Shown: positions 1-60,438 of the stretch, piece after piece | Position numbering within the stretch: position 1 is the stretch's first letter | Layout of the letters: each line of letters opens with the position of its first letter | DNA from: Cloeon dipterum | Lineage: Eukaryota > Arthropoda > Insecta > Ephemeroptera > Baetidae | DNA: 64,000 nt | Assembly (NCBI RefSeq): GCF_949628265.1 | Contig: NC_088789.1 | Span: 30,249,883 to 30,313,882 of the forward strand | Direction of reading: 5' to 3' | Program-made: the position numbers and the translations under genes | Notes under the pieces: model-generated | The model's input: only the letters and a program-made list of their open reading frames with translations | Told to the model about the DNA's origin: nothing | Database searches by the model: none

Positions 1-1146
1 ACGAGTTGGCGGAGGAAATCGAGGATCACGACCTGATTTGCTATTTTTGCCTCTGGCACGCCGAGTAAGCTTTTAAAAGGTATTCAAGGAATCTTATTTT
101 TTAAATGAGAAATTTTATTCTCAGGTTTCAATGGAAATTCGACGAGATGGCGGACGAGAATTTGGTTTGGTGGAATTTAGATTTGGATTTGGACGATGCA
201 GCAAGAGAGCTGCGGAAGAAATATTTTGGTAAATAGATAACGATCTCTGGAATTCTTAATATTTTTTTATGATTTGTCAGAGGGTAAATTGGAGCAGTGC
301 TGGGTGCAGTTGGAGAAAATTAAGCTGCCGCAAAGGGCTGACGGAGAGGAGAGACGAATTGATGAAGCTGAAACTCTGCCGAAGAAATGGAATTGCATCT
401 ACTGCGGGAAAAGATTTAAATATTCTTATCAATTGTCTGGACATGTGAAGAAAATGCACAAAGAAGCCATCAGATGTGAAAATCGTAGCTGTGTGACTTA
501 TTTCCACACTCATGAAGAAAAAGATGAGCACAACAAGAATGTCCACGAGAAAGAAAAGGAAAGAGAAAAACTCAATTGCACCTTTTGTGAGAAGGAATTT
601 GAAGGACCAAAAAACTACAACAGTCATGTTCGCAAGGTTCACAAAGAGTTTCCTGTAAAATGCTCTCGTAAGGGTTGCTTATCATTCTTCAAAACAAAAA
701 TTGAAATGAAAACGCACTTTGCCTCTGCTCACGGGAAAGATGACGAGGCAAAAGTGTTCGAATGCAATGACTGCGATTACAAAGCAATGCAAAAATGTAC
801 TTTGGAAATGCACATAGCTAGCAAGCACTTGCCGAAATATATTAAATGCAAAGTGTGTGAAAAAATGTACTCGACTGAATCTAGTCTAAGGATGCATGTA
901 AATCTAATTCACAATTTCAAGGTTTGTAAATATTGCAAGTTACATGTTTCCATCAATTGTATGAAAAGTTTTCATCTGAATGTTAAAAAGTGCAGCCACT
1001 GCAAGAGCAAATTCCAATGTTCTGGTTTGTACCAAATGCACTTGAAGTCATGCAGAAAGAGAATATTTAAATGTGACAAGTGCTCGAAATCATTCAAATT
1101 CAAATACAGCCTGGCTCGTCACATTAGGAAAAAACACAATCGGTGA
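1..1146 (+). CDS. ZAD-type C2H2 zinc-finger protein, copy A (5' end outside window)
   Basis: Three exons: <1-64, 125-228 and 281-1146, joined by phase 2 and phase 1 introns of 60 and 52 nt with GT-AG ends. Only the tail of exon 1 is in the window, including the second Cys pair (ICYFC-like) of the ZAD-like domain. Exon 2 supplies the FQWKFDEM segment and a Trp-rich, acidic stretch. Exon 3 holds six C2H2 fingers, a degenerate Cys-rich segment, a C2HC finger (second His replaced by Cys) and a final C2H2 finger near residues 265-288 of the exon. That last finger is shared only with copy B. The frame is open to TGA 1144-1146, and a polyadenylation signal AATAAA lies at 1249-1254. Nuclear DNA binding is inferred from the family; the target is unknown. 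Confidence 0.85.
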
Positions 1147-1347
1147 ATGTGATGCAGAACACAATTACCCTGATTCGATTGCAATGCTTGTTCAATATTT
1201 TATTTGTATTATATTAATTAACTCTGTTTGAAATTAACTCTTCATCACAATAAAAATGATAAATATTAGTTTAAGATACGAGATAACATTTATTAAAACA
1301 TCCAGTTCCAACAAAAAAAAAACAAAAAATTTATTTTTAACAATGTT

Positions 1348-1712
1348 TGGAAGTGCGTCCAGAGTGTAGCATGTTTGCAAAACCGGTTCTCGGTAGATCA
1401 CCAAAGTTAAGCAACTATATAATAAATGCAGTCAGTAGGTGGATGAGTGACCGCCTCCCTGCCAAAAACTCGCTACTTGCTTCTTTGCACCTTTCCAGCA
1501 TGCGTGATTTGGCTTCACGGGACGAATGTCTAGCGTTTCAATGCAGTCCTCGGTGCGGAGGCAAGTGGCCCTTGAGTGGGCTGCGTCCTTGTGCGGCCTG
1601 GTGCGCCCATTCAATCCGTTCGCGGTTTTATTCGCACTCGGAATTCAGCATTCGTGCTTAACAAAGTGCGCGCCCTTCCCGGTCCAAAGACAGGGATAAA
1701 AGGGAAAATAAA
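1348..1712 (+). mobile_element. 5S rRNA-derived SINE (SINE3-like)
   Basis: Bases about 1350-1465 read as a diverged 5S rRNA gene. CGGTTCTCG and GATCACC are followed by the box A-like AAGTTAAGCA (1404-1413) and the box C-like GGATGAGTGACCGCCT (1441-1456), in 5S order and spacing. A roughly 240 bp unrelated body and an A-rich 3' end follow. This is the layout of SINEs with an internal 5S-type RNA polymerase III promoter. The 3' body reappears, without the 5S head, at 49874-49975. It is not a functional 5S gene, because the middle of the 5S part is substituted and the 3' stem is absent. Confidence 0.75.
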
Positions 1713-4549: not shown

Positions 4550-5806
4550 ATGTCGATTCAAAAGCCTCTGTGCTTGATTTGCGAGCGACCGACAGCGGAC
4601 GGCGCTGTCCTCGCTGTCCACGTGGACAAGGAAAAACTGCAGCAGTGGTTTCTCAACGTCTGCGAATACGAATTGGAGGAAATCAAGGATGACGACCTGA
4701 TTTGCTACTTTTGCATCTGGCACGCCGAGTGAGTAAATAAGAATTCGGGTTTTTCTCTTTTATGTGGAATTTTCCCTCAGGTTTCTTTGGGAATTCGATG
4801 AAATGGGGGATGAGGAATTTGTATGGTGGCCCAGGAATTCAGATTATTCGGACGATGCTGCGAAAGAGCTGAGGAAGAACTATTTTGGTAAAATTTACGC
4901 TTTGGTAGAATTTTTCAGTTTGTTTATTTTCATCATTTTATAGATGGGAAGTTGGAGCAGTGTTGGGTGCAGTTGGAGACAATTGAGCTGCCGGAAAGTG
5001 ACGGCGAGGGGACACAAAACGTTGAAATTGAAATACGGCCGAGGCGATGGAAGTGCATCTACTGCGGGAAAAGATATAAATATTCCTCTGATTTATCAAA
5101 ACACGTGAAGCAAATGCACAAGGAAGCCATCAGATGTGAACATCACAAATGTGCTACTTATTTCCACACTCTTGAAGAAAAAGAAGAACACACCAAGAAT
5201 GTCCACGAGAATCCAGAGGAACGAGAAAAAATCGATTGCACCTTTTGTGGAAAGGAATTTGAGGGACCGAAAAACTACAAAAAACATGTTCGCCGTGTTC
5301 ACAAAGATTTTCCTGTAAAATGCTCTCGTATCGGTTGCTCCTCATTCTTCAAAACAAAAATCGAAATGAAATCACACTTTGATTCTGTTCACGGGAAAGA
5401 TGACGAGGCAAAAATGTTCGAATGCAATGATTGCGATTACAAAGCAATGCTAAAATCTAATTTGGAAAAGCACATAGCTTTGAAGCACTTGCCGAAATAT
5501 ATTAAATGCAAAAAGTGTGAAAAAATGTACTCGACTGAATTTAGTCTAAGGATGCATTTTAATCGAGTCCACAATTTCGAGGTCTGTACATATTGCAAAT
5601 TGGATGTTTCTACCGTCAATATGAAAAGATGTCACCTGAAAATTAAAAATTGCATTCGATGCAAGAGCAAATTTGAATGTTCTGGTTTGTACCAAATGCA
5701 CTTGAAGTCATGCAGAAAGAGAAAAATTAAATGTGACAAGTGCTCAAAATCATTCAACTTCAACAGCCATCTGGCTTATCACACGAGAAAAAATCACAAA
5801 CACTAA
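4550..5806 (+). CDS. ZAD-type C2H2 zinc-finger protein, copy B (complete)
   Basis: Exons 4550-4728, 4781-4887 and 4944-5806 give a 382-residue protein with phase 2 and phase 1 introns of 52 and 56 nt. The N-terminus has the ZAD-like Cys4 pattern C8-x2-C11 and C52-x2-C55, completed by the F-x-W-x-F-D segment of exon 2. ZAD domains of insect factors usually dimerise. Exon 3 carries fingers in a fixed alternation: CX2C, CX4C, CX2C, CX4C, CX2C, CX2C, then a degenerate segment, a C2HC finger and a final C2H2 finger. The start is the ATG aligned with all paralogues (MSxQ). AATAAA lies at 5943-5948. With copy A it forms a two-member subgroup having the extra last finger. It is probably a nuclear transcription factor, target unknown. 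Confidence 0.88.
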
Positions 5807-6995: not shown

Positions 6996-9277
6996 ATGTT
7001 GGACATTTTGGATAAGTGGGAATTATTTAATACGCTGAGCGATGAACTGAGGAGGAATATCCGGCTTGCATTTGTAATTGGTGAGCTTTAGTTATAATGT
7101 TTCATAAAACTTAAACTGTGTCCTTGAAAATATTATGTTGAATTTCTGGCACTTTTTGACAATAATAGTCATTTAATTTAATTTCATAGCTTTCTTTAAA
7201 TTAGAGCTTTGATAATTCCTCAGTTTCAACATACATCCTCTCATCTTTACTAATTAACATTTAAAGACAATAGCGCAATTTACGTGACGAAAGATGACGA
7301 AGTTTTCGGCTTTGGCAAAAACGAAGAAGGATTTCTGGGCACTGGCGACATGAAACCACGCACGGAACACACGAAAATTGAACAATTGTGCGGACAAAAT
7401 ATTCAAGGTGAAGCTCAAAGAATATTATATATTGATGTTACTCCTAAACAATACACGTTATTATATGTTTTTCTTCAGGGTTGCAGTTCTCAAAGTATAC
7501 ATTTTTTGCGATTTCTGGTTCCGGCTCGGTTTTCGCCTGGGGAAGAAATTATTACGGGCAGCTTGGACTGGGTACGAAACAACGCACCTTGATTCCAACC
7601 AAAATAGAAGGAATTTTGGCAACGAAAAGGGTAGTGCAAGTTGCCTGCAGCTCTTGGCATACTCTGGTTTTAACTTCAGATAGAGAGGTGTTTAAAAAAT
7701 AAATCTAAAATTAAAATTAACTCACAAAGATCCAAATAAGGTCATCTCGTTTGGTTTTAATCATTACGGGCAGTTGGGACTTGGACACAGCGATGACCAA
7801 ACTCGGGCACAAACGCTTCCAAAAAAATTGGACTTTCCTGCGGCTGCTGGGAAAGTTGTGACAGCCATCGCATGTCTAGATTTATCATCTGTGGCGCTCC
7901 TAGACTCAGGAGAGGTGAGAATTATATCTTTATGTTTATAGAGAAATATGTTTAAACCAAATATCTTTATTAACCGTTGGATCATTTTGTATTTAAAGGT
8001 ATTTGCGTGGGGCAAAAATGAATATAGCATTTTGGGCTACAGAGATGACTACTTAGAAAAGCAAAACATTCCTCGCAAAGTTCCAGGCTTTAATGGCATC
8101 ACAATTACAAGAATTGTTTGCGGCAAATATCATGCCCTAGCTTTGTCCAACAATGGAAATGTCTATTCCTGGGGATGAAATAGGGATGTCCAGCATGGAA
8201 CTGAAACTAACAAAGATGCACACCGACCGACTTTGATATCTGGAGATTGTGGCAGGTATTAAATCAATGAAACATTGCAGAACAAATCAATAATTATTAT
8301 TTTTACAGGGTAATAGATATAGCTACTCATTTCGAAAGCAGTGTTAGTGCTGCGGTTACTGAAGGAAATGAAGTTTACGTATGGGGTTGGTTGAATGGTA
8401 CGATTTAAAATCTTTAAAAATAATTAATTCTCACGAATTCCATTTTAAGGCCAAAAATTTAGGAGCCCGACGAAAACCTCATTCAAATCACTGGACGAAC
8501 TTTTTGCGAATATTGGATATAAGGCTTTGACATTCCGACCGTTGCGTCCAAAACGTTCTGAGCCGATCCAAGACATTCCAACCGAATTACTCAAGAATTC
8601 TTTTGACGACGCTGTGAGGAATAATAAAAACATATTATTCAATAAATAATCATAACACTAATTAATTGTGGCGGATAGGATACTGCCGACGTTGTTTTCG
8701 TTGTCGAGGGAAAGAAAATACACGCGCACAAAACAATTCTGATCGAACGATGCGATTTCTTCAGGGAAATGTTCCTGGGCAATTGGATAGACGACGAAAG
8801 CAACGAAGGGTAAATATTATTTTAACTTGTGAATGAACAAAACTTGATTTTCGTAGGGAGAACATCGTCGAGTATTATAGTTACGAAGCGTTTTATGCCT
8901 TCTTGAAATACATCTACACCAACGAGGTGGATTTGAATACAGATTTGTTATTCGGTAAAACACTTGAATTACGTTGGTTTCTGAATTTGAAAATTTTTTT
9001 TTAAAAAAAGAACTTATCTCCTTGGCCGACATGCATGAAATGCCTGATCTGCGAAAGAAGTGCTTGGAAATTGCCCAAATAGCCGTGCTGAGTGTGGAAA
9101 ATGCAAGGGCGAACAACGACGATCCTTATCAACTTGATGTCGAGGTTCTTGCAATCTTATAATTACTTTTTAAAATGCAAATTTCCCAAATTTCTGATCT
9201 GGACTCTCGTTTCTTATTAGGAGTTTAAGAAGTTCGTTTTGAAGTTCTGCCAGAAGCATTATATAAATTATAAATGA
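6996..9277 (+). CDS. RCC1-repeat and BTB domain protein (RCBTB1/2-like), with an in-frame TGA
   Basis: Eleven exons can be joined in frame: 6996-7080, 7267-7407, 7479-7687, 7741-7914, 7999-8255, 8309-8397, 8450-8613, 8679-8809, 8857-8954, 9011-9144 and 9221-9277. Together they span 513 codons, close to vertebrate RCBTB1 (about 530). The N-terminus (DKWELF...TLS) and first blade resemble RCBTB. RCC1-type repeats follow (FGFGKNEEGFLGTGD, FAWGRNYYGQLGLG, FGFNHYGQLGLG, YSWG). A BTB domain then runs from DTADVVFVVEG through KYIYTNEVDL, with the usual C-terminal FxxKFCxxH. Such proteins are thought to act as BTB adaptors of cullin-3 ubiquitin ligases. One codon inside the fifth exon, TGA 8176-8178 (codon 263, after YSWG), interrupts the frame. 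All other frames and splice sites hold except for a weak donor after exon 10 (GTTCTT). It is either a recent null allele or a base error. AATAAA lies at 9383-9388. Confidence 0.75.
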
Positions 9278-10087
9278 CTCTGCTGTTGTGAAGAGCGACG
9301 GTTCAAGCTCTTGAATAGAGATGTCGTGAAAGATTTCGTCTCATAAAAATGTTATGTGGATGTGGAGGCTTGCACATTGAAAAATAAAATAAGAAATACC
9401 GTGTGAAGAAATGTGTCATTAAAAATCAACAGATATATTCAAATTGTGTTCTTTTTCGTTCCAGAACGCACATAAACTCAATTATTCATTAATTTCCTGC
9501 AAAAATCGTCTTATGAGATGGGAAAGGCTTTTTTAAAAATAAAAAGTTTAGACACAAAAATAATATTAAAATGATTATACGCGCGCCGTGCTGAAAAGAC
9601 TGAAAAGCAGGATGTTTTGGCGCCGCAAGCACTTTCTCGCGCCTTATTTCCCAGCCAGCCAATGAGAACGTGACGCTCGACCACGCCCATTGGCTGATCC
9701 AGCTGCAGCTGATGAAAACAGAAAACACCGCCGCCGCGGAAGAAAAAATATTAAAATGAATTAAGATGATGAATGATGCTTCAGCAATAGAAACTTCCTA
9801 ACTAGCTATGCATCGACCTGATAAAATCAAGAAGCGGGAAAACAATGTTAGCCAATCACCATGGTTCGTTGCATTCGCATTCTCAACTCCCCGTTCCGCG
9901 AAATAGACTTTCGTCCATCTTTGATTTCTCTACTCTCTATAGTTCTTGTAGCTTGACGGGATTTTTATTTTCGCGCGTTATTTGCAGTGTCTACGAGTTA
10001 ACTGTAAATCCATTTTGTGCACATCCGTGCGCTAGAATGGCAATAAAAAACAACCCTTGTATCTTTGCAGGTCTTCTCGAGGTTATC
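9278..10087. other. intergenic and presumed 5' region of LRR gene 1
   Basis: It holds the 3'UTR of the RCC1/BTB gene to about 9400. CTTTGCAG at 10064-10071 could be a splice acceptor just before the LRR-1 start codon, implying a 5'UTR intron. No coding sequence is recognised. Confidence 0.45.
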
Positions 10088-11108
10088 ATGGACGAAATGA
10101 ACGCGTCGGATGAGTTGGTCCAAATGACGAGGGCCAGGTTGCAAAATCTGAAGCCGCGGCGACAAGATGCTCAGGAAAAAACGCCTGATTCGTGTTGTTT
10201 TCACATAGAGTACCACCTTCACACCACGTTGGACCATTCTCCCAATGGAGGTGACGAGCACATCAAGCACCCAAACACCACTCATCTGAAGGCATCTGTT
10301 TATTTCACCCTTTTATATTAATTTCTAATTAATAAACCATTTATTTTCAGATCATCTGCGCTAGGGTTGAAAAACACCGGCTCGAGTGTGTGCTCCAGCT
10401 GACGAAAATCAGGGCTCTGGCGCTGGAAATGGTCCGCGACCAGTACGTCGTGGACCGCTTCCTGGCCACCTTTGGTCCGAATCTGCACACGTTACGCATC
10501 AATTACCTGCCGCTGGCATCCGAAACTGGCGACTGGCTCAAAGTGCGTCGCCTCATGAAGCTCTGTCCTCGATTGGAAAGGCTGACTTTGGAAGGCGTCT
10601 TCCTCAAAGACGAAACTGATGTGGACAACTTTCCTGAGCTTCGAGAGTTCGCGTGGAGGGTGTCCTCGTAGGTTTAATTTTTTAATTCTCTTTTTTTTTA
10701 AATTAATATAAATCACGCAGTGAGGCCTGCGAGGTGGTGGCCAAAATCCTGACGTCGCCCAAATTGCAGAAGGTTTGCCTGGCGGGGGCAGTCAACCTGG
10801 ACGCCCTGAAGAAGGTCACTGCTCAGATCAGGGAGAGAAAGATCCTGAGGCAGCTGCAGTCTTTGCACATTCTCCAGAGAGAATTCCGCCTTTACAACCT
10901 GCAAACCATGGCTGATCAATTCAGCGTTTCTGCTTCTCTGGCAAAGGTCGCTTCAGCTTTTTTGCCCAACCTGATTGACGTCCAGTTTTCTGTGATGGAC
11001 TGCCTGTTTTCCTCTTTCCCTTTCAGTCCTTTATTCGGTGGACTGAGGAAAGACGAGAGCCTCGACAAGATTCTCGATGAGTTCAAGAAGTTCAACAAAA
11101 ACAAATGA
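10088..11108 (+). CDS. LRR-like family protein 1, internally shortened
   Basis: Exons 10088-10291, 10351-10667 and 10721-11108 give 302 residues. The first residues (ELVQMTRARLQNL) match the start of paralogues 2-4. The exon then jumps to the GDEHIKHPNTTHL motif that ends exon 3 of the paralogues, so about 220 residues are missing, including the first leucine-rich stretch. The second exon has repeated L-x2-L motifs. The last matches the paralogue C-terminus (SPKLQKVCL, ILRQLQSLHIL, ASAFLPNLIDV). The first intron uses a GC donor (AAG/GCATCT); unspliced, the frame stops at 10321. AATAAA lies at 11109-11114. The function is unknown; an RNI-like solenoid is likely. It is either a real short paralogue or an early pseudogene. 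Confidence 0.6.
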
Positions 11109-11963
11109 AATAAAGGGAAAAATGTTTTAATTGCTTCTGGAAAAAGATAAATAAATATCTTTCCTGATTTATGTCCAGGGTTTTCTCTGGTCTAGTTCAT
11201 TTTCAACAATAAAACTTAAGTCTCAAATACGGTTAGTTAAAAATTCAGTCTATCTATAAATTTGCAAAGGAATTTATTTACTATCCATGTCTCAATTTCA
11301 TCGCTGAAAATTGCTTGGATGTGGATGCTGCTTGACGCGGATGAAGCGGGACATACGAAATAATTGCGATTCTAGTTTATGCTTCGCTCGCAATTCCTCC
11401 GTATTTATTTATTTAATTATTTAATTTAGTTTACGTTCGCCGCCGCATCCAATTGATGGCGCTATTGCACGAACCATTCTGGTCTGCGGTCTGGTCATTT
11501 CCCGCAAATTTTACGTTCGTCGCACGCACAGCCATCTTTGAAATTCTTGCTCTTGCAGCTCACTCATGACTACTCATTGTCAGCGGCGTCAGCGCAGCTG
11601 CCAGCTCAGCGTGAATCAAAAAACTTCTCAAGTGCCAATAAAAATAATATTTTTCCTGGCCTATATACTCAAAAAATAACGGTAAGCTGTGTTTTTAATT
11701 TAGGTTAAAGGTGAATTTCATTTTTATTGCCCATTATGTATATGTACATAGCGGATGAATCGAGAGAAATGCAAAATAAAAATAACTTATAGTGCCCCAT
11801 AACAATGCTGCCGATTTTGTTATTGTTTTTTTACGTAAATCGGCCACAGGCCGCCGAATCTGCGCCGAATTCTGGCCAAATCGAATTTTGAATTTCTTAA
11901 CTTGATTTACATAATATGGCCGAAAATAATAAGTTCTTCAAGGATTTGATTTTTGATTCTTAG
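11109..11963. other. intergenic between LRR genes 1 and 2
   Basis: No gene is seen. The stretch directly before 11964 ends in TTCTTAG abutting the ATG, so a 5'UTR intron of LRR gene 2 may lie here. Confidence 0.4.
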
Positions 11964-14211
11964 ATGGATTTCGTGACGGGAAAAGACGAAGAAGATCGCT
12001 TTGTCGAGCTCACGAAGGTGAGGCTGGAGAACCTGAGGAGGGGGCAGACTCTGGAGGAACTCCTTGTTCGCTACGTTGCCGAAAACATTCACCTTTTCTC
12101 TGAATTCTCTGAGCAAAACCAACTGGTTACATTGCGTGAGTCTTATTTATGTATAACATATTTTTGTCAATTTTTTGTGCATTTTATTTTATTTAATATA
12201 GCCATCCAAGTGCGAGAGAAGATCTTGCAAAGAGTGCTGCAGTTTAGCTGCTCGGATTCCAATGGCAACCCAGAAATGCTACAAAAGATTTTGAGCGCGC
12301 TGCCGCAGCTGCTGAGTCCTTGCACCAGAAAAGTGGATTTGGAAGGCTTCTTCAGTCTTGGCCCCGAAAATTCTGCAATGATACAAGTAACTATTAATCA
12401 TTTTATTTAAATTATATATATGATTAAAACTTATTTATTAAATATAGGTTTTTGGATGGATTGCTTGTCTGGCTCCGAACGTGGAGGAATTGTCCATGTG
12501 CAGAGATGGAGCCAAGGCCGTTCGCATGCAGTACCTGCTTCAGCCGCTCAGCCAAATGAAAAAGCTGAGAAAAATTAAGCTCAGAGCGATCGAGTTTCGC
12601 TTTTCCGACCTGAGCAAGCTGTGCGGCGATTTGCCCAATCTGCAAGCGGCCAGCGTCGGCGCCCTTGGCCACGTGGAGCATGATTTGAGAGACGGAAGCG
12701 AGCACAAGCGAAATTTGCAGAATCTCAGGGTGCTCGAGGACAACCAGTGGTGCTCACGCCATTTTGAATTGCTCGCCACTGTTGCTCCTCATCTTGATTA
12801 CATCACAGGTTGGAGCCAAGATTATTTGCCACTCTCTTACGACGAGAAGGAAACGCCACCGTTCCTGAAGAGGAGGTTTCTTACCCTGGAAGCGAGGGCG
12901 ATTATTCTGGAAGAAGGGCACAAGCTGGCTATCAAGTACCCAAACATTTCCCATCTCGTGGTAATTTCAAATTTATATGTTCGTGCCGCGGAAATTTAGC
13001 CGATCGTTTGCCTCGCCCACTTTTGTCCCTCTGCAGCATCGCTCGCACAAGTCAGCTGATCGAATTGAACGTAACTCCAGGTGATGGTGGGACGAACGAC
13101 CAGCCAAATTTCCGCGGCAATAACGGTGTATTGATATTTTAAATTTCTATCCGTTCGGCAGGCGTAACTATGGTCCATTTGACGGAATTTTTGTGCGTTG
13201 AAAGCGATGACTTCGTTCGTGCTGCGGAAAAATGGCCGATCGTTCGCCCCGCCCATTCTTTTTCCTAGTAACTAACTAACTAACTTCACTTCGATCAGTG
13301 GACTGTAGCGCACGATGTTGAGGGATACGTCAAAAGTGGGCGGGGCGAATGATCGGCCAAATTTCCGCGGCATGATTGAAATGATAGGAGATGGTGGGAG
13401 TTCCAGAAAAGGATTCCACATTGAAAAACTCGTGAATTTGTTTTTTGTTTTCAGATCGAGGAAGCTTACTTCGAAATTCAATCCATCGGATCGGTGCTGC
13501 ATTTCAAAAAGATCGAGTCCTTGACCTTCGACGGCGTGCTGAGCTGGGCCATCGTGGAGCGCATCTTGGCCGCCTTTGGCCACCAACTTCACTCTTTGGC
13601 CATCTGCTGCGATGTTCCGCCGAGCAAAGCTCTGACTTTAGAACAGATTTCCCAGCTCTGCCCTAAACTGGAGATGCTGCACCTGAGTAATGTCTTATTT
13701 CCGGACACCACGATGGAAGTGTTTCCTGAGCTCACTGATTTAATTTGGATGAACGAGTACATATATATTAATTTAGGATTTCAAAATGTGTTTATATCAA
13801 TCTTTTAAAATGTGTAGGTTGGTGGTTCTGTCGCCATCCAGCGTGTTTTGTGCCCCGAAACTGAAGAGAGTGCTGATGAAGGGTGTCTTCTGCGTGTCTG
13901 ATCTAGAAAAGTGCACCAAGATGATTGAAAAGGGCTACGCTCTCAGGGAGTTGCTGAGTTTGGGCGTGGAACTCAGGCACACGTTCAACCCTGACTTCAA
14001 TCAGAAGCACTTCAACGCGGCCGCTCGCATGGTCAAGACCGCGTCTGCCCTTCTTCCCAAACTGGCCAAATTTTACTTAAACCTTCAGATGCAATACTTC
14101 AGGTTTGTGTATGATGGGAGAGTAAGAGTGCCTATTGAGGAGAAGTTTGACTACGACACCTACAACAGGCTGCTGAAGGAGTACAACAAACACAACGGAG
14201 TGCATCCGTGA
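11964..14211 (+). CDS. LRR-like family protein 2
   Basis: Exons 11964-12135, 12202-12386, 12448-12960, 13455-13756 and 13818-14211 give 521 residues, with intron phases 1, 0, 0 and 2 as in genes 3 and 4. The N-terminal segment (RFVELTKVRLENL, then LEELLVRYVAENIHLF, then IQVREKILQRVLQ) resembles the short helical box that precedes the leucine-rich repeats in ZER1/ZYG11-like ubiquitin-ligase adaptors; this is an inference from pattern only. Exons 3-5 are rich in irregular leucine repeats (LSQMKKLRKIKL, LCGDLPNLQAASV, ISQLCPKLEMLHL). No transmembrane segment or signal peptide is seen, so it is probably cytosolic. Intron 3 (494 nt) is enlarged by palindromic repeats. AATAAA lies at 14322-14327. 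Confidence 0.75.
12981..13376. repeat. two palindromic MITE-like units in intron 3 of LRR gene 2
   Basis: Unit 1 (12981-13120) opens with TGCCGCGGAAATTTAGCCGA and closes with the near inverse GCCAAATTTCCGCGGCA. Unit 2 (13216-13376) opens with TGCTGCGGAAAAATGGCCGA and closes with GGCCAAATTTCCGCGGCA. The inner sequences (GCCCCGCCCA / GTGGGCGGGGC) are also complementary. They form tandem hairpins confined to the intron, without coding potential. Confidence 0.7.
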
Positions 14212-43717: not shown

Positions 43718-44386
43718 ATGTCGTTGCAGAAGGAACTGTGCTTGATCTGCGAGCGTCCTACGGCGGACGGCGCTGTCCTCGCTGTCCACGTGGACAAGGA
43801 CAAACTGCAGGAGTGGCTTCTCAACATCTGCGGACACGAGTTGGCCGAGGAAATCCAAGACGAGGACAAAGTTTGCTACTTTTGCATCTGGGACGCCGAG
43901 TGAGTATTTAAAAAGGAATTTAAGAAATTTTCATTTTTATTTGTGGAATATTTCCTGAAGATTTCTTTGGAAATTCGACCGAATGGTGGACGAGGCTTTG
44001 GTTTGGTGGCCCAGGAATTTAGATTATCTGGACGATGTGGCGAAGCAGCTGCGGAAGCACTATTTTGGTAAAACTCAAGCTTTGGAAGCCCGATGGTTTT
44101 TGTTCAATTTTTTATTCTTTTTAGAGGGAAAATTGGAGCAGTGTTGGGTGCAGTTGGAGATAATTGAGCTGCCGCAAAGTGACGGTGAAGACAGGCGAAA
44201 CGTTGAAGCAGAAATACCGCCGACTAAGCGGTGGAAATGCATCTTCTGTGGGAAAAAAGTTAAATTTGCTCGAAATTTGACAACACATATGAAAGAAAAG
44301 CACAAGGAAGCCATCAGGTGTGGAAATCGCAATTGTGCAACTTATTTCCACTCGCTTGAAGAAAAAGAAGAGCACACCAAGAATGT
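43718..44386 (+). pseudogene. ZNF-J, 5' part, cut by a transposon
   Basis: Exons 43718-43899 and 43961-44067, plus the first part of exon 3 from 44125, encode an intact ZAD-like domain, finger 1 and most of finger 2. The frame then enters the inserted element and stops at 44478-44480. Its missing part resumes at 48263. Finger 1 has unusual helix residues (KFARNLTTH). The promoter block and splice sites are intact, so a truncated product could still be made. Confidence 0.85.
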
Positions 44387-44656
44387 CCCTACGAGAAAAA
44401 TCACGTGTCTACCACGTGAAAAACTCGTGGTTTTTGCCACGAGTTCACGTGTCTTGAAACACGTGTCTACCACGAGATAGACACGTGTGAAGTCTCGTGT
44501 AAAATCACGTGTTTTGGGAACGAGTCACGTGTCGACACGGGTTTGGAACGAGTTGAAACTAGGCTCTAATTTTGCATTAAATATATTTATTTGCAGCAAA
44601 TAATGACCATTATACATATGCAATTACAATTATTATTCGCATACATTTGTTCTACT

Positions 44657-45540: not shown

Positions 45541-45589
45541 CAATATCGAAGACGATTCAGTCGAATAACAAAATTTGTCTCACGTGGCT

Positions 45590-47985: not shown

Positions 47986-48262
47986 CCCTTAAAATCATTA
48001 AATTAAGGAACAAAACTGCAAATTACATAGTAAAAATGCAATTGAAGCAATTAACAAGTAATTTAATTTTTAACTCGTGTCCGGTAACACGTGTTTGTCA
48101 CGTGATGATCACGTGATCCAGAAATATTAAAAACACAAAATAAATCAAAATTTCAAGTCAATATTGACTAAGGGGGCCTCAAATAACCCGGGAAAAATAA
48201 CAAAAAAAATATTTGAGGGGGTCACCGAAAACTCGTGTCAACACGTGATTTTTCTCGTAGGG

Positions 48263-48796
48263 GTCCACGAGAAACCAAAGGAACGAGAAAAATTCAAGTG
48301 TAGTTTTTGTGGGAAGGAATTTGAGGGATCATCAAACTACAACCAACACATTCGTAATGTTCACAAAGATTTCCCTGTAAAATGCTCTCATCTTGGTTGT
48401 CTTTCATTTTTCAAAACTAAAATCGAAATGAAAACTCACTTTGATTCTGCTCACGGGGAAGATGACGAGGCAAAAATGTTCAAATGCAATGATTGCGATT
48501 ACAAAGCAATGAAAAAATATCATTTGAAAAAGCACATAGCTAACAAGCACTTGCTCAAATCCAAGAAATGTAAAACGTGTGAAAAACTTTTCTCCGGTCG
48601 ATCTGAATTGAGAAAACATGTGAAAAACTATCACAATTTCGAGGTTTGTGCTTTTTGCAAAAAGGTTATGACTGTTCATTACAAGAAATATCGTCATTTG
48701 AAAATTACAAAGTGCAATCGCTGCAAGAGCAAATTCCGATGTTTAGGTTTGCATAAATCTCACTTGAAATCTTGCAAAAATCACAAAAATCGGTGA
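48263..48796 (+). pseudogene. ZNF-J, 3' part after the transposon
   Basis: It resumes at GTCCACGAG, the last His of finger 2, and is open to TGA 48794-48796. It encodes fingers 3-6, the degenerate segment and the C2HC finger without any lesion. The lack of decay beyond the insertion indicates a young insertion. Finger 5 helix residues are K, Y, H and K. AATAAA lies at 48973-48978. It could only be expressed if the insert were spliced out. Confidence 0.85.
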
Positions 48797-50165: not shown

Positions 50166-53100
50166 GGACCCTACATAAACGATACCCATCGACAGGGGGG
50201 TCGCAGTTAAGGGACCGGGGGGCAGAGGCGGGGGGGCCGGGGGGGTTCGGGCCCCAAAGGTTTTTTGCCACCGCCCCATAGGAGCCCGGGGAGCCCCTCT
50301 TTGCAAGCGGCCTCCCTATGCTCCTGTGTAAAAAAATCGCCAAAACGGGGCGGATCGGGGCGAAACCCGGTTGGTCGACGCAGGGTCGCCCACGAACGCG
50401 TTTTCAGGTGTGCAAGCCTGGATTCCTTCCATAGGAGAATTAAAAAAAATAAAACCAAAAAGGGCCTTTTCGAGGGTCTTTCCGGGGCAGCGTTGGGTGC
50501 GAGGGGGATGGTGGGTTGAAATTGGTGCCGTCGCCCGCAGAATTAAACGGTGAGTTCAGCCATTACCGGTTTTGGCCCGCAAGTCCCATAGCGGCCGAGA
50601 TATAAAATTCGAAAGGTGCAAAAACGTGGTTTGGACATTAATTATTTTTTGAGGAGCCCCCGCGAAGGCCCACCACGCCCGACGGCCCGCCGGGACCACT
50701 CATATGAAAGAAGCTGCAATTAGCTTCATTTTGACGGGTAGTACACTCAAAGAAAAAATTCTCATTTTGAGACGAAAAAATCGGCTCTCAAGTGAGAGTA
50801 AAAAAATTCGTCTCACTTTGAGAGCGAAAAGCGGCCTGCCGCTTTTGCGTCTCAATTTGAGACGAAAAAATCGGCTCTCAAAAGAGAGCGAAATTTTTCG
50901 TCTCACTTTGAGAGCGAAAAGCGGCCGGCCGCTTTTGCGTCTCAATTTGAGACGAAAAAATCGGCTCTCAAAAGAGAGCGAAATTTTTCGTCTCACTTTG
51001 AGAGCGAAAAGCGGCCGGCCGCTTTTCGCTCTCAAAGTGAGACGAAAAAATCGGCTTTCAACTGAGAGCGAAATTTTTCGTCTCACTTTGAGAGCGAAAT
51101 GCGGCCGGCCGCTTTTGCTTCTCAATGTAGAGCCTAATCTGTTTTGTACTTACGATCGGCTATGGCAGGCCCCGCAAAACTTTATTTTCAATCCATTTGA
51201 TGATCCGCTTGGCCGAAAAACTTGAAACGTCGTTCACGCACAGCATTATTACCGCACTTTTTGCCACTTAGGGACAATGCACTTGACATAAAACGACCTC
51301 AAAACCCGACTAAAAACGCCAGCGTGAGCCCTTGCCGCGAAAATAGACGGACCAGCTGAAACTGAAACTTTAAAATGTAAACAATGACACTGATAGGCCA
51401 ATTTTAATTTTTTGGACCAATCACAAATTAGTTCTGGTTATAAGTTATAACCTCACATCCTTGACTTTGACTAGCGCGAAGTCAGTCTGAAAAAATATAG
51501 GAACAAACTAATTTTTTTCAAATCAAGAGAGATGCCAACAACAATAAAAGTGGAAATAAATTATAAAATAAATACAAAATTAATTAAGATAATAAGTGGT
51601 ATAATAATTAAAATTATGAAAGAGTAAAATATAAATTAATATGGATAAAAGAAATTTAAATTAAAAAAATAAATAATTTAAACATGAAAATAAATACAGT
51701 CTTTAGGAATTATTGTTAAAAAAAAAACTTCTTAAATTCAAATCTGGAATATATGACATGCTTCATAAAACGAATAGCAGGTAGACTGGACACGGCTTAA
51801 AGAAGTATACATGGTTAGACTCTCAGTTACACTGTTAGGAATAAACCTTTTTTTAAACCAATTGCTTGCATAATTTTGAATGTTAATTTTGATTAAATCT
51901 TTAGAAATCTAGAGTCGGCCACAGGGACATCATAGATTTCAATTTCACGTACAAATTTATATGTTTTAATGTTTCCTGAGCGGCATATTAACATTGAGCA
52001 ACATAATTTGAATCAATCTGGCATATTTTTTGGATGAGGACTGTCATCAGTGATGTAAATTAGTGATTAGAAGCATCGTTTTCGTCTTCTTTCATGACAG
52101 TATGGACCTGCTTTTAACTTGGAAATTTTATCAAGGAATTTTAATTTTAACCCACCAATTCTAATTAATCTGAATTGAATATATTTAAACCATCTCAATT
52201 AAGAAAAAACATAATAACGGCGCATCTCTTCCAAATTTCCGCAAATTTGCCTGAAACTGCCCCGATGGTAAAATGTGATAACATGCACCAGGAAAGGAAA
52301 ACATATTGCTACAAATAACAATTTTGAGACATTTATGCATAGATTGACCAGCAAGCCAGGATTTCCCGGGAATTTGTTTTCAGGCTTCTGGGATATCACG
52401 CAAATAATTAGAACATTGTCCCGGGACTGGGCCGAACCCGGCAAATAATTTTCGAAGAAGTCAAACTCGCAACAACAAAAATAATCCCGATGGACGCTCT
52501 ATTTTAAACCGTCTAGATCTAGAAATTAATAATAATGGCGCAGTTCTCCGCGAATTTGGAAATTGATTGGTCGCGATTTGTTTTTTGAATTTTTATGAGA
52601 CAATTACGTTTGCTTTTAAAATTGAAATTTACACTGCCCAACCTAGTTTGCGTCCCTGGGAGACTTTTCATTTTAAAAACATTCACAGGTCGAAGGTTAA
52701 GGTCCCCTTTAGCAAAATTATTTGAAATTTTAAAATTGAAAAGGATGATCGTAAATATCTGCAACAGCACAACAAGTTCCAAAGCTCCAGTCACGATTGT
52801 TTTGCTGCAATTCGAATTTGAAGTCAAAAAATCGCGTCCAATCAATTTTTTTTTATTTGTAGCAATATGTTTTCCTTTCCTGGTGCATGTTATCACATTT
52901 TACCATCGGGGCAGTTTCAGGCAAATTTGCGGAAATTTGGAAGAGATGCGCCGTTATTATGTTTTTTCTTAATTGAGATGGTTTAAATATATTCAATTCA
53001 GATTAATTAGAATTGGTGGGTTAAAATTAAAATTCCTTGATAAAATTTCCAAGTTAAAAGCAGGTCCATACTGTCATGAAAGAAGACGAAAACGATGCTT

Positions 53101-56100
53101 CTAATCACTAATTTACATCACTGATGACAGTCCTCATCCAAAAAATATGCCAGATTGATTCAAATTATGTTGCTCAATGTTAATATGCCGCTCAGGAAAC
53201 ATTAAAACATATAAATTTGTACGTGAAATTGAAATCTATGATGTCCCTGTGGCCGACTCTAGATTTCTAAAGATTTAATCAAAATTAACATTCAAAATTA
53301 TGCAAGCAATTGGTTTAAAAAAAGGTTTATTCCTAACAGTGTAACTGAGAGTCTAACCATGTATACTTCTTTAAGCCGTGTCCAGTCTACCTGCTATTCG
53401 TTTTATGAAGCATGTCATATATTCCAGATTTGAATTTAAGAAGTTTTTTTTTTAACAATAATTCCTAAAGACTGTATTTATTTTCATGTTTAAATTATTT
53501 ATTTTTTTAATTTAAATTTCTTTTATCCATATTAATTTATATATTTTACTCTTTCATAATTTTAATTATTATACCACTTATTATTTTAATTAATTTTGTA
53601 TTTATTTTATAATTTATTTCCACTTTTATTATTGTTGGCATCTCTCTTGATTTGAAAAAAATTAGTTTGTTTCTATTTTTTTCAGACTGACTTCGCGCCA
53701 GTCAAAGTCAAGGATGTGAGGTTATAACCAGAACTAATTTGTGATTGGTGCAAAAAATTAAAATTGGCCTATCAGTGTCATTGTTTACATTTTAAAGTTT
53801 CAGCTGGTCCGTCTATTTTCGCGGCAAGGGCTCACGCTGGCGTTTTTAGTCGGGTTTTGAGGTCGTTTTATGTCAAGTGCATTGTCCCTAAGTGGCAAAA
53901 AGTGCGGTAATAATGCTGTGCGTGAACGACGTTTCAAGTTTTTCGGCCAAGCGGATCATCAAATGGATTGAAAATAAAGTTTTGCGGGGCCTGCCATAGC
54001 CGATCGTAAGTACAAAACAGATTAGGCTCTACATTGAGAAGCAAAAGCGGCCGGCCGCATTTCGCTCTCAAAGTGAGACGAAAAATTTCGCTCTCAGTTG
54101 AAAGCCGATTTTTTCGTCTCACTTTGAGAGCGAAACGCGGCCGGCCGCTTTTCGCTCTCAAAGTGAGACGAAAAATTTCGCTCTCTTTTGAGAGCCGATT
54201 TTTTCGTCTCAAATTGAGACGCAAAAGCGGCCGGCCGCTTTTCGCTCTCAAAGTGAGACGAATTTTTTTACTCTCACTTGAGAGCCGATTTTTTCGTCTC
54301 AAAATGAGAATTTTTTCTTTGAGTGTACCGCCATCCTGCTCGAACGGCGCCGGAGCTAGAAGGGCCGAAAGGGTTAAAAACAGGCAAAAGTCGAAATCCC
54401 CATAAAGTTAACACGGCCGCAGACATGGAAAGCTAAAAATCTAAAAACCCCACCAAAAATCAATTCCGCTCATCCTAAGACCTCCCAGCGAGTTTTAGGC
54501 CTGTACGACCTCCTCAGGGTCAACGGAGACCTTTCAAATGTACAAAACGCAATTTTTCGGTACTCGCGGCCCCCCGCGGGGTCCCGATGGGCCCCAGGGC
54601 CCCCAAGCTCGAGACTCGAGCAGGCGACGAGTGAACGAAGCCAACGGTGTGCGGAAAAGATTTTTCCGCCTCATAGCGAAAAAGTTATTAAACGGGCAAA
54701 TTTGCCCATTTGTTGCCTGAGTACCTTTCGGCAGGCATATCTCCGGACCAGAGCAAAAAATGAAAAAATGGCTTGATCAGCGATGCGCAATTTATCTGCG
54801 AACATTTTAAGACCAAATTCGACCTGATCGGATGAAAAACCTGGGAGGAGATAGGTTTGGCGCGCGCCGCGGAAGGGTTTTTCGCCTCCATAAGCTTAAC
54901 ATGGGAATTTCGAATTCGGATTTCACGCAGAAAAAAAATATTTTCGGCCGCGACTGCTGTACTATACTCTTCCGCCCGGTGAATATTCCCTGCAAACCGA
55001 TTTTGGCGGAAATCCGTGCCATAGGCGATTTACGGCGGAGCATTGAAAGTCCGCGTTTTGCCGTGCACTCAAATGGCCAGGCTGAAAAAACGCGCGGCGG
55101 CGCCGCGGAGCCGCCGGCCGCTGAATACCCAATTTGACCATCGGACACACACGACTGAGTGCGCGGGTGTCTGAATCCAAATTTTAACCGGTCTAACTCT
55201 ACCCAAATTTATTTTATATGGGATTTTCGGTTTTGGGTGTGCACGGCAGAAGGAGCGTGCGGTGCGGCACCGAGTGAAACAGTTTTATTTTTGCCAAAAT
55301 TCGAGTATTCGCCGCAGCGTCGACCGCGAATCCTCATTCGAAAGTGCCCGCCGAGCACTTCAACCTGGCGTGCCCAAACGACCTTCCCCAGGGTCCCCCG
55401 ACCTGAGACCGATTCGCAGGCCGAATTTAATCGCGATTTCGGCGTTTTCAAGCCAGTTTGACGCTGCGTTGCGTTGACTAGCCGCATTTCAAACCACCAA
55501 CCTTCCTCAGGTCGCCCACCCTGAGCACTTTTACTGCGTGATTTTGCCGGCGGCAACGATTCATTTCGCTTCCTTCGTCGCATTTAGAGTGCATAAAAGT
55601 GCGTTTCGAATTCGCGCAAGCGGCGCAGCGTGCACTGCAGCCGCATTTCGCCCAGCGCAAAAGACACTTTTTAATTCATTTTTTTGCCAAAATTCGAGCA
55701 TTCGCCGCAGCGCCGACCGCGACCCTCATTCGAAAGCGCCCGCCGAGCGCTTCAACCTGAAGCAACCGGCTGACCTTCCTCAAGTTCCCCCGACCTGAGA
55801 CCGATTCGCAGACCGAATTTAATCGCGATTTCGGCGTTTTCAAGCAAGATTGACGCTGCTTTTCGCTAACTAGCCGCACTTCAAACCACCAACCTTCCTC
55901 AGGTCGCCCACCCTGAGCACTTTTACTGCGTGATTTCGCCGGCGGCAACGATTCATTTCGCTTCCTTCGTCTCGTTTAGTGTGCATAAAAGTGCGAGAGA
56001 GGCGAAGCGTGCACTGCAGCCGCATTTCGCCCAGCGCAAAGACACTTTTTAATTCATTTTGCCGAAATTCGAGTATTTGCCGCAGCATTGACCGCGACGA

Positions 56101-56470: not shown

Positions 56471-56545
56471 CTAATAGAAATAATGTTCAAAATCCGTTAT
56501 GAATTTTAAACTTTCCCGCATTAAACGAAATCAAGGGTGTGTTTC

Positions 56546-56626
56546 CTCTCCTAAGGGTGGCGCTTCAATAGCTTAGCCACCTGCAACCTTCCATCTTTTC
56601 GCTCAGGTTCAGGTGGTCTGTTAGAA
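56546..56626 (+). promoter_or_regulatory. ZNF-L upstream block
   Basis: CTCTCCTAAGGGTGGCGCTTC, then CCACCTGCAACC (56577-56588) and GGTTCAGGTGG (56606-56616). It lies about 80 bases right of X copy 2, so the insertion left the block untouched. Confidence 0.6.
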
Positions 56627-57820
56627 ATGTCGTTTCAAAGAGTGTTGTGCTTGATCTGTGAGCGTCCAACGGCGGACGGCGCTGTCCACGCTGTCCACGT
56701 GGACAAGGAGAAACTGCAGACTTGGTTTCTCAACGTATGCGGACACGAGTTGGCCGAGGAAATCGAGGATCATGACAAAATTTGCTACTTTTGTCTTTGG
56801 GATGCGGAGTGAGCATTTTAAAAAGAATTTAAGGAATTTCCTTTTTTATTTGTGGAATACTTCATGAAGGTTTCTTTGGAAATTCGACCGAATGGCGGCC
56901 GAGGATTTGGTTTGGTGGCCTAGGAATTTAGATTATCTGGACGATGCGGCGAAGAAGCTGCGGAATTACTATTTTGGTAAAATTCACGCCTTTAGAAGCT
57001 CTTTTTGTAAAATTTTGTATTCGTTTTAGAGGGGAAATTGGAGCAATGTTGGGTGCAGTTGGAGAAAATTGAGCTGCCGCAAAGTTACGCTGAAGAGAGA
57101 CGAAACGTTGAAGCAGAATTACGGACGAAGCTATGGAATTGCTTCTACTGCGGGAAACGATTTAAATATTCGTATAATTTGTCTGCACATATGAAGAAAA
57201 TGCACAAGGAAGCCATTAGATGTGGGAATAAAAACTGTGCTACTTATTTCCACACTCTTGAAGAAAAAGAAGAGCACACGAAGAATGTCCATGAAAATTC
57301 AAAGGAACGGGAAAAAATCAATTGCAGTTTTTGTGGGAAGGAATTTGAGGGACCAAAAAACTACAACCAACATGTTCGCCGTGTCCACAAAGAGTTTCCC
57401 GCAAAATGCTCTCATAAGGGTTGCTTGTCATTTTTCAAAACTAAAATCGAAATGAAAACTCACTTTGATTCCGCTCACGGGAAAGATGACGAAGCAAGAA
57501 TGTTCAAATGCAATGATTGCGATTACAAAACGATGCGAAAATTTGATTTGGTACGGCACATAGCTAGTAAGCATTTGCTCAAATCCAAGAAATGTAAAAC
57601 GTGTGAAAAACCTTTCCCCGGTCTATCTGAATTAAGAAATCATGTGAAAAACTATCACAATTTCGAGGTTTGTGCTTTTTGCAAAAAGGTTATGACTGTT
57701 CATTACAAGAAATATCGTCATTTGAAAATTACAAAGTGCAATCGCTGCAAGAGCAAATTCCGATGCTTAGGTTTGTATAAATCTCACTTGAAATCTTGCA
57801 AAAATCAGAAAAATCGTTGA
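56627..57820 (+). CDS. ZAD-type C2H2 zinc-finger protein, copy L
   Basis: Exons 56627-56808, 56870-56976 and 57030-57820 give 359 residues, intact. The ZAD-like stretch has VHAVHVD where others have VLAVHVD. Finger 5 is the most divergent of the family (TMRKFDLVRH; helix residues R, F, D and R). Finger 1 equals copy C, and fingers 6 onward equal copies F and J, again a mosaic. AATAAA lies at 57995-58000. Confidence 0.87.
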
Positions 57821-59161
57821 ACAAAAAATTTGAAAGTTGTTGACGAAATCTTGCTGGAAACCACTTATTCATAGAATTTCAGTCAAAATATGTGAATATA
57901 TAATAAGTGCTTTTTAGTATTTCTTTCTTTTTTTATTACATTGTAAATGCACTATAATTTAAACAAAAAACCTGTTTCTAAAATTTAGAGTTTAAATAAA
58001 TACAAAACAAAAATTCCAATATTTTTCTGCATTTTCATTTTTGTCAATTATTATGTGAAACAATGAGTAGGGCTGTGAATTTTAGACGATTGACTAATTT
58101 TTAAGATTTAAATCATTGCAGGACTATCAAATCAGCACGAATCATGCAATTTAATCCACACTTAAAACCGTTAGAACCATATAATTATACCAAAACCATC
58201 TAAAACCGATTACAACCCGTCTAAATAGATAAGTTTAGAATGCAAAATTGTCCAAAACATAATTTATTAGCCGTTAAAAATTATTCATAACAAAATTTGA
58301 GCTCTGCATGATGGGTCAAATCCCAGTAAATTTGTATTTTATAAAAGGAACAATACAAAATGCCCAATGCACCATGGTTCAGTGCTTGCCTTTTTTACCG
58401 ATTTCACGCTCGGCTCAAATCAGACACAACATACAACCAAATCATATTTCCAATAAGGAGACAAATGCTCACCGCTTTTTGTTACCGGTTTCTTTCACAG
58501 AAATTTAAACAGAATCGACGGAAATTTTTGCTCTTTACCAATTTGAAGCAAATACATATTTAGAAATTTCCGTTTTACACAATTCAGAGCTACTTTAAAT
58601 AATAACAAATTATTTTCCGTTAACATCATTTAAAGCCAAAAGTTCATGCGAGAATAACAATCCTCAAGCTCAATGGTACTGCAGAGGCACGACAAGCGCA
58701 AGACTCACGCGAGCCCCTTCGCGTCTTCTTTAATTAGCGACACTTAATTTTATTGCAGCAGCAAGATGCGGCTTTCGTTCTCACACTCAATTGGCGAGAA
58801 ACGCGAGCATTATTTCTCCGACGATTTCCTAGCACCTCTCCTCGCGCGCTTTTGCCAATTTCTTCATTTGCACGCTGTCTACCGACGCGAACGCCAAGAG
58901 CAACTCATATCGTTACGACCGTTGCACTTCCGCTTTATTATTGTGATTCCAGAAACAGGATACGGACAATTACTTTGCCTCTGAATTCCGAAATTAATAC
59001 AAGCGTGTCTTGAAAATAGATGCGGAAAAGCGACATTTTTAAGTTAAAAAAACCTCTATTAAATTTTCACTGAGGAAACGACTGAATCTAATATGGAAAT
59101 GTTGTTAAAAGTACGTTATGAATTTAAAACTTTCCCACTTTAAACGAATTCAAGGGTGTGT
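57821..59161. other. spacer L-M
   Basis: Modules occur as in E-F: TTTAGACGATTGACTA (about 58080), CACGCTCGGCTC (about 58405) and GCAATGGTACTG (about 58670). The empty X site, diverged (CGACTGAATCTAATATG), lies at about 59080-59096. No gene is seen. Confidence 0.62.
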
Positions 59162-59245
59162 AGCCTCTCCTAAGGGTGGCGCTTCAATAACTAAGCCACC
59201 TGGAACCTTCCATCTTGTCACTCAGGGTCAGGTGGTCTGTCAGAA
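59162..59245 (+). promoter_or_regulatory. ZNF-M upstream block
   Basis: CTCTCCTAAGGGTGGCGCTTC, then CCACCTGGAACC (59196-59207) and GGGTCAGGTGG (59225-59235). Confidence 0.58.
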
Positions 59246-60438
59246 ATGTCGATTCAAAAGGCGCTGTGCCTGATCTGTGAGCGTCCGACTGCGGACGGCG
59301 CTGTTCTCGCTGTCCACGTGGACAAGGAGAAGCTGCAGAATTGGTTCCTCAACGTCTGCGAGTACGAGTTGGCTGAGGAAATCGATGACGACGATTTAAT
59401 TTGCTACTTTTGCACCTGGGATGCCGAGTGAGTTTCTTTCAGGAATTAGTAGAATTTAAGGATTTTCCCCTCAGATTTCTTTGGAAATTCGACGAAATGG
59501 TGGATGAGGAATTGGTTTGGTGGCCGAGGAATTCAGATCATTTGGACGATGCAGCGAAAGTGCTGCGGAAAAACTATTTTGGTAATATTTGAGCTTCGTA
59601 ACGTTAGAGCAATGGTTTTTGTTTATTTTATTTATTCTTTTTAAGATGGGAAATTGGAGCAGTGCTGGGTGCAGTTGGAGAAAATTGAGCTGCCGCAAAG
59701 TGACGGTGACGAAGAGAGACGAATTGAAGGTGAGATTCGGCCGAGGCTATGGAATTGCATCTACTGCGGGAAAAGATTTAAATATTCTCGCTCTATGGCT
59801 CTTCATAATAGGAATTTTCACAAGAAAGCTATCAGATGTGAAAATCGTAGCTGTGTGACTTATTTCCGCTCTCTTGAAGAAAAAGAAGAGCACATGAAGA
59901 ATGTCCACGAGAAACAAAAGGAACGAGAAAAATTCAAGTGCAGTTTCTGTGGAAAGGAATTTGAGGGACCACAGAACTACAACCATCATGTTCGTCATGT
60001 TCACAAAGATTTTCCCGTAAAATGTTCTCATTATGGTTGCTTGTCATTTTTCAAAACGAAAATTGAAATGAAAACTCACTTTGACTCTGTCCACGGGAGA
60101 GAAGACAAAGCTAAAATGTTCAAATGCAGTGATTGCGATTACAAAGCAATGGAAAAATCTAATTTGAAAAAGCACATAGCTTTCAAGCACTTGCTCAAAT
60201 CCACGAAATGTAAAATGTGCGAAAAACTTTTCTCCGATCGAACTGAATTGAGAAATCATGTGAAAAACTTCCACAATTTCGAGGTTTGTGCTTTTTGCCA
60301 AAAGGTTATGCGAGTGTTCATTACAAGAAATATCGTCATTTGAAAATTACAAAATGCAATCGCTGCAAGAGCAAATTCCGATGTTTAGGTTTGCATAAAT
60401 CTCACTTGAAATCTTGCAAAAATCTGAAAAATCGATGA
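59246..60438 (+). pseudogene. ZNF-M, C-terminal frameshift
   Basis: Exons 59246-59427, 59475-59581 and 59646 onward are open through finger 6. At 60311-60315 the paralogue codon ACT is replaced by five bases (CGAGT), a net +2 shift, giving a stop at 60341-60343. The predicted product has 328 residues and lacks the C2HC finger, whose coding DNA persists to TGA 60436-60438. Because only the last finger is lost, a working truncated protein is possible. Exon 2 and intron 1 resemble copy B (acceptor CCCCTCAG). The helix of finger 1 is unusual (YSRSMALH). Finger 5 helix residues are E, S, N and K. AATAAA lies at 60613-60618. Confidence 0.75.

Follow-up and report, generated by a model that had tools for sequence, protein, structure and literature searches.

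Analysis of a 64,000-nucleotide stretch of the genome of the mayfly Cloeon dipterum (Baetidae; C4:30249883-30313882, hereafter the window) places a series of C2H2 zinc-finger genes with a ZAD-like N-terminal domain within a megabase-scale cluster of related zinc-finger genes. In these genes, fingers that change at the residues predicted to contact DNA alternate with fingers whose helices are nearly constant, and this alternation is also found in the selection acting on their codons. We consider it fairly probable, at roughly two chances in three, that they belong to a C2H2 family expanded in mayflies that would bind DNA and yields a repertoire of different specificities, through alternating selection combined with recombination between copies.

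The genes consist of three exons separated by small introns, with the N-terminal domain encoded by two short exons and the fingers by the third; GT and AG intron borders are readable in the 12 window copies laid out. The fingers are arranged in pairs, a CX2C finger being followed after 5-6 residues by its partner (a CX4C finger in pairs 1 and 2), with 10-residue linkers between pairs. Linker lengths of 5-10-6-10-6-4 residues are present in 95 of the 110 copies compared, and 9 of the 110 were unmatched by the pattern. The knuckle consensus is CENRNC and CSRIGC for the CX4C fingers, next to CIYC and CSFC. In two structure models the finger-4 helix spans 17-18 residues and enters the linker, compared with 11-12 residues in the odd fingers, and the finger-2 helix spans 16 and 13 residues; structure-search matches were mostly zinc fingers. 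An assignment to tandem CWCH2 (GLI/ZIC) pairs was rejected, as the tryptophans between the cysteines that define such pairs (PMC2837044, in the part of that paper used here) are missing from the consensus. The CX2C/CX4C two-finger unit also occurs in two unnamed metagenome proteins, P0071 (repeated) and P0078 (less regular), and is therefore not restricted to named Cloeon records.

Variability was assessed in 122 exon-3 entries, namely the window copies and entries L009-L038 and L039-L118, which represent 119 places since L009, L019 and L037 repeat window copies. Removal of 8 entries (7 places) with an open frame below 250 residues, and of 4 entries identical to another, left 110 sequences, a sample biased to top-scoring matches (80 of the 120 remaining listed matches were taken, plus the window copies). 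A preliminary description of the window had listed the residues at helix positions -1, 2, 3 and 6 of finger 5 for 12 copies, and all 12 quadruplets were recovered exactly as listed, as were, in 12 of 12, a Lys and a Leu at helix positions 1 and 4 of the same finger. In the wider set, Lys1 is present in 110 of 110 copies and Leu4 in 109, and the four finger-5 contacts reach entropies of 2.56, 2.69, 2.11 and 2.35 bits. Position 3 of this finger is N, H, D, T, S or Q in 109 of the 110 copies, residues that are suited to base reading. The near constancy described for the helices of fingers 2 and 4 likewise extends to the larger set: their contact positions read TEEE (65/110) or SEEE (23/110) in finger 2, and TIET (59/110) or TIES (18/110) in finger 4. 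The CX4C knuckle interiors of these otherwise constant fingers do vary (2.2, 2.36 and 2.56 bits).

The statement that the CX2C fingers 1, 3 and 5 all vary at their contacts holds at all four positions for finger 5, but only at some for the other two. In finger 1, positions 2, 3 and 6 vary and position -1 hardly does (Tyr in 97/110), and in finger 3 variation is confined to positions 2 and 6 (Gly at -1 in 109/110, Asn at 3 in 103/110). Finger 6, also of the CX2C type and absent from that description, shows intermediate variability. The number of distinct contact quadruplets among the 110 copies is 77 for finger 5, 62 for finger 1, 51 for finger 6 and 47 for finger 3, compared with 13 for finger 2 and 19 for finger 4; when fingers 1, 3 and 5 are taken together, 109 different combinations are found.

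All selection tests were performed on paralogues of one genome, and the codon model was of the MG94 type, with the synonymous (alpha) and nonsynonymous (beta) rates left free on equal grids. On one tree, the finger-5 contacts gave a signed likelihood-ratio test (LRT) value of 37.7 (alpha 0.8, beta 2.7) and, as the preliminary description had anticipated, exceeded their neighbours, the other finger-5 codons having a beta of 0.4 and an alpha of 1.0. The same analysis gave 7.6 for finger 3 (alpha/beta 1.25/2.2), 4.5 for finger 1 (2.2/3.3), 0 for finger 6 (1.5/1.5), -9.2 for finger 2 (0.8/0.4) and -96.4 for finger 4 (2.7/0.5). With trees built from each exon stretch alone, the values were 20.9 (finger 5), 10.5 (finger 3), 0 (fingers 1 and 6), -12.4 (finger 2) and -86.6 (finger 4). 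When the four-codon contact pattern was slid along the exon on the one tree, finger 5 ranked first of 257 placements, followed by fingers 3 (9), 1 (15), 6 (55), 2 (140) and 4 (255). At the level of single codons, a signed LRT above 3.84 was obtained for 21 of 264, uncorrected for the 264 tests, and 96 codons were purifying by the same measure.

A test that requires no tree led to the same ordering of finger 5 over finger 3. In 37 disjoint pairs of copies, picked on non-contact codons only (p <0.12), the ratio of nonsynonymous to synonymous differences per site (pN/pS) at contacts was 2.45 (1.68-4.02) for finger 5, 1.55 (1.12-2.23) for finger 3, 1.25 (0.93-1.81) for finger 1 and 0.91 (0.66-1.45) for finger 6, and 0.27 for both finger 2 (0.15-0.51) and finger 4 (0.18-0.42). 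As choosing pairs by non-contact distance somewhat depresses the non-contact rates (pooled contact pS 0.218 vs 0.147), each class was set against its own pS; set against the pooled contact pS, finger 5 still reached 1.63 (1.32-2.02). For the N-terminal exon 1, 7 close pairs drawn from 33 distinct open exons gave a pN/pS of 0.33. The finger-4 contact codons of the 37 pairs have a raised synonymous rate (pS 0.356 vs 0.147 at non-contact codons), for which CpG mutation is one guess. Selection for new specificities, as proposed in the preliminary description, is thus supported for finger 5 by one-tree likelihood, local tree and disjoint pairs alike, and more weakly for finger 3, mainly at position 6, whereas finger 1 is equivocal. 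The purifying selection on fingers 2 and 4 is what was predicted from a fixed structural role, and such a role may well underlie it.

The copies are mosaics, and recombination shuffles their modules. Linkage between 174 two-state sites drops with distance, with 0 of 300 permutations as extreme. Copy F of the window is 92-95% alike with copy E across exon 1 and intron 1, 97-100% alike with copy G in windows starting at 33385-33827, and 91-96% alike with copy L in windows starting at 34027-34225. F and L are identical at 214 of 225 bases (95%) past finger 5, compared with 51 of 66 within it. The differences between F and L at all four finger-5 contacts were initially considered as evidence for selection and then dropped, as finger 5 lies at the edge of the stretch that these copies share. 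Mosaics of this kind, and the decay of linkage, are what would be seen if gene conversion alone were at work, with old contact variation moved about in conversion tracts, tree-based tests misled and little selection ongoing. Conversion carries synonymous and nonsynonymous changes alike, yet the contact pN was 4.2 times the local pS in 38 pairs that had been matched by the non-contact codons surrounding finger 5, and the signal is kept on finger-local trees. These local-pair and local-tree results argue that recombination alone is not the source of the contact excess, and we judge an account by conversion only to be quite improbable.

Alternating variability is not confined to the copies analyzed above and recurs in two further subfamilies, here termed B and C. 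In subfamily B (32 gathered proteins), mean contact entropy is 2.3-3.2 bits in the six CX2C fingers from the fifth onward, and 0.56 and 0.99 bits in the two CX4C fingers; a short CX2C motif (CSKC) has 0.50 bits, and fingers 1 and 3, which fall outside the finger pattern, were left unscored. Subfamily C was represented by 40 of 150 listed exons, taken from among the best C2 matches of near-equal length, all 40 of them open over the part taken. Its finger 3 and finger 5 contacts vary (1.5-2.8 bits), and single codons with values above 3.84 include position 6 of fingers 6 and 4, among others. Overall the alternation in subfamily C is less clean, and is found without significant positive selection at the level of contact classes.

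Several observations weigh against a repertoire shaped by selection on alternate fingers. In subfamily C, finger 2 varies at position 6 (1.8 bits) and finger 4 at positions 2 and 6 (1.7 and 2.2 bits). The class LRT values for its fingers 1-6 are -1.3, -2.1, 1.1, -10.6, 2.4 and 3.4, with positive selection significant for no contact class, and the contact patterns of fingers 5, 6 and 3 rank 18, 13 and 27 of 210. Among the 110 copies, only 4 of the 21 positive codons are odd-finger contacts, and several of the other 17 lie in inter-finger linkers. The six closest pairs (p <0.06) are without a finger-5 excess (3 nonsynonymous changes in 56 sites), and finger 1 has both rates raised with an LRT that falls from 4.5 to 0 on the local tree, which could be due to relaxed constraint. 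In addition, recombination weakens any single-tree test, and the structure models (mean predicted local distance difference test score 76.7 and 77.2) have a low predicted template modelling score (0.35 and 0.39), so that the modelled arrangement of the fingers is unreliable.

Part of this evidence would be accommodated if constraint were relaxed throughout, such that the contacts of redundant copies drift, no target matters and the CX4C fingers are kept for folding. The behaviour of finger 1, the six closest pairs, the class-level result for subfamily C and the fact that five of the 13 window copies are broken all fit drift of this kind. At finger 5, however, drift predicts a ratio of about 1, not one of 2.45 or a beta/alpha above 3, nor does it sit well with the retention of Lys1 in every copy or the restriction of position 3 to six residues in all but one. 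We regard relaxed constraint as an improbable explanation, and selection for different specificities, in combination with recombination, as the preferred one.

Under this preferred explanation, bases would be read by the CX2C fingers 1, 3 and 5, placed in the major groove, whereas fingers 2 and 4, of the CX4C type and with long helices that enter the linkers, would act as fixed spacers that determine reach and phase. Duplication would supply copies, between which recombination would exchange front fingers, back fingers and the N-terminal exon, and the target would be shifted by positive selection on contact codons, most of all those of finger 5. The conserved N-terminal domain probably serves for dimerisation or for recruitment of a common partner. 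The linkers of 5-6 residues and the CX4C fingers are unlike canonical DNA-binding arrays, and hypervariable sites are present in linkers and knuckles too, features that would suit fingers that bind RNA or proteins instead of DNA bases, with the variable residues forming a partner-recognition surface; we hold this to be very unlikely.

The N-terminal domain, labelled a ZAD in the preliminary description, resembles one in having two CX2C pairs ahead of the C2H2 fingers, with C8, C11, C53 and C56 present in all 9 sequences compared, but stays under the Pfam cut-off for zf-AD (best 15.1 bits vs 28; two of nine members match at E <=5). Genome-wide, the Pfam zf-AD model has 16 matches, 15 of them above the cut-off and none in the window. 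The plain label was therefore set aside in favour of "ZAD-like". Alignment of the N-terminal profile with seven recognised ZADs of the same genome using hhalign covered 52 columns, kept the cysteines in register and gave a probability of 80% (E 1.4e-5), and the N-terminus of a modelled related protein, P0003, aligns with four solved ZADs of flies. A PDB sequence search with the profile returned three chance-level matches, the best being thymidine kinase (E 0.23). Of four gene models from a different C. dipterum assembly (P0066, P0075, P0091 and P0076), three join the N-terminal domain to ankyrin repeats and one is labelled as BTB-containing, which reflects either real shuffling or gene-model fusion.

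The genome assembly spans 190 Mb in 10 contigs. Querying it with the finger exon gave 1341 candidates, and all of the best 150 are located on C4, at 28.77-32.95 Mb; the best 150 of 564 candidates for the N-terminal exon are all on C4 as well. A second type of N-terminal exon has 96 matches of at least 100 bits (49 on C4, 46 on C1 and 1 on C2), and a third has 124 on C2, a tally that leaves out 25 C4 matches that are possibly repeats of the first query. With no overlap noticed between the three lists, these 150, 96 and 124 distinct matches amount to at least 370 related N-terminal exons genome-wide. Between ~28.89 and 28.97 Mb of C4, matches repeat at an offset of ~60.2 kb (for example 28890207/28950454, 28902406/28962637 and 28907510/28967742), which suggests that the segment was duplicated recently or that the assembly contains it twice in error.

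A search with copy I of a protein set clustered at 90% identity returned 86 proteins. The best match (72% identity) is from another C. dipterum assembly, and those from the chromosome record of the window are 36-40% identical. As no close match from this record is among the 86, the genes of the cluster seem absent from the clustered set, and current annotation may lack most of the cluster. None of the 110 copies was matched above 80% over the whole of exon 3 by any gathered protein, and hence no orthologue pairs were available.

The window copies all lie on the forward strand, and exon 3 is open in 8 of 13. Copy A (3-1146) comprises the end of exon 1 (3-65, the rest preceding the window), exon 2 (~114-233) and an open exon 3 (280-1146) with nine finger-like motifs, finger 5 being at 763-828. 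Copy B (4550-5806) has exon 1 at 4550-4729, an exon 2 and an open exon 3 at 4943-5806, again with nine motifs. Copy E (27576-28775) has three exons, the third open with eight finger-like motifs. An open exon 3 is also present in copies F (33093-34292), which is E-like at the 5' end, G-like in the middle and L-like at the 3' end, G (35211-36405), which shares an identical 174-base stretch with F (33372-33545 / 35488-35661), H (38479-39665) and L (56627-57820). In copy I (41037-42232), for which a structure was modelled, exons 1 and 2, including the short intron, encode the ZAD-like domain (41037-41391; fold evidence from the related P0003), and exon 3 is open (41444-42232), with finger 5, the class with the strongest contact selection, at 41924-41989 (contacts E/L/T/R).

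Of the broken copies, C (22350-23507) has an exon 1 with diverged first residues, an exon 2 and an exon 3 from 22729 that is frameshifted past finger 5; D (25052-26231) has three exons and a premature stop within finger 6; and M (59246-60435) is frameshifted within finger 7, with fingers 1-6 in frame. All three still retain fingers 1-5. The exon-3 pieces at 44124 and 48254 are fragments: K (43718-44387) contains the first two exons, the whole of finger 1 and the greater part of finger 2, and J (48254-48796) fingers 3-8 only, its upstream exons not being found.

Outside these genes, a large palindrome occupies 50741-54328; its 696-base arms at 51626-52321 and 52850-53545 are 100% complementary and flank a spacer of 528 bases, and further arms extend outward to 50741 and 54328. 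Tandem repeated genes for leucine-rich-looking proteins are present on both strands (9806-14211 on the forward and 16157-20497 on the reverse strand), and four scanned pieces of them had no Pfam family at E<=0.05. A region at 7254-7592 has weak RCC1-repeat similarity (E 0.00052 to an RCC1-like domain, under the cut-off).

When compared with known zinc-finger families, as described in the parts of the papers cited here, the mayfly genes share features with several. Like Drosophila ZAD-ZNF proteins, they have two N-terminal CX2C pairs followed by C2H2 fingers and have undergone a lineage-specific expansion; in contrast to the at least 370 N-terminal exons of the mayfly, there are >90 such proteins in Drosophila (PMC8022714). 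Positive selection in Drosophila ZAD genes is described as acting mainly in the linker and less in the fingers, with adaptive evolution of the finger domain in three genes (PMC7655104), and no positive selection was reported for the expansions tested in D. melanogaster and A. gambiae (PMC2604467). With mammalian KRAB-ZNF genes the mayfly family shares tandem clustering and positive selection at base contacts, although in the former selection affects sites in many or all fingers without obvious pattern (PMC2604467), whereas in the mayfly contact selection alternates, being strong at finger 5, weak at finger 3 and purifying at fingers 2 and 4. KRAB-type arrays also have a 7-residue linker (PMC2604467), unlike the 5-10-6-10-6-4 spacing found here, and the list of 10 Pfam families for copy I (E <=1) does not include KRAB. 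The FiNZ-ZNF genes of zebrafish, a cyprinid fish, number ~700, almost all of them located on a single chromosome arm, and have an N-terminal domain of their own (PMC10547256). Their contact residues are enriched for a nonsynonymous to synonymous rate ratio above 1 in two clades, repeating the vertebrate contact-selection pattern with another domain (PMC10547256); the likeness that we draw to the mayfly family concerns features other than the N-terminal domain.

The resemblance to KRAB and FiNZ genes in size, tandem clustering and contact selection (PMC2604467; PMC10547256) raises the possibility that transposon defence drives the selection, a proposal that concerns cause only and is compatible with a repertoire of DNA specificities. 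No result obtained here links any copy to an element, and Drosophila ZAD proteins are apparently not specific transposon silencers (PMC10547256, in the part cited), so that we would consider this driver possible but somewhat unlikely. A broader proposal, more doubtful again, is that mayflies independently evolved a vertebrate-style sequence-reading repertoire of several hundred members, in which a divergent ZAD takes the place of KRAB and rigid, invariant spacers separate the reading fingers (a split-reading design), with mobile or selfish mayfly DNA as the targets. If the split-reading design is true, each contact module would be replaceable by mutation or recombination with the scaffold left undisturbed.

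Judging by titles and abstract openings, none of the papers searched deals with an expansion of ZAD or zinc-finger genes in mayflies, and the terms "zinc finger" and "ZAD" are absent from the main texts, supplements aside, of the C. dipterum genome paper (PMC7250882) and of PMC11491810. The combination of a ZAD-like start, contact selection and alternation was not found described in the literature searched. Selection on contact residues in large zinc-finger families has been tied mainly to vertebrates and to transposon control. A mayfly family with strong contact selection at finger 5 provides a non-vertebrate test of what drives such repertoires, and its alternation a natural design in which reading fingers are separated from spacer fingers.

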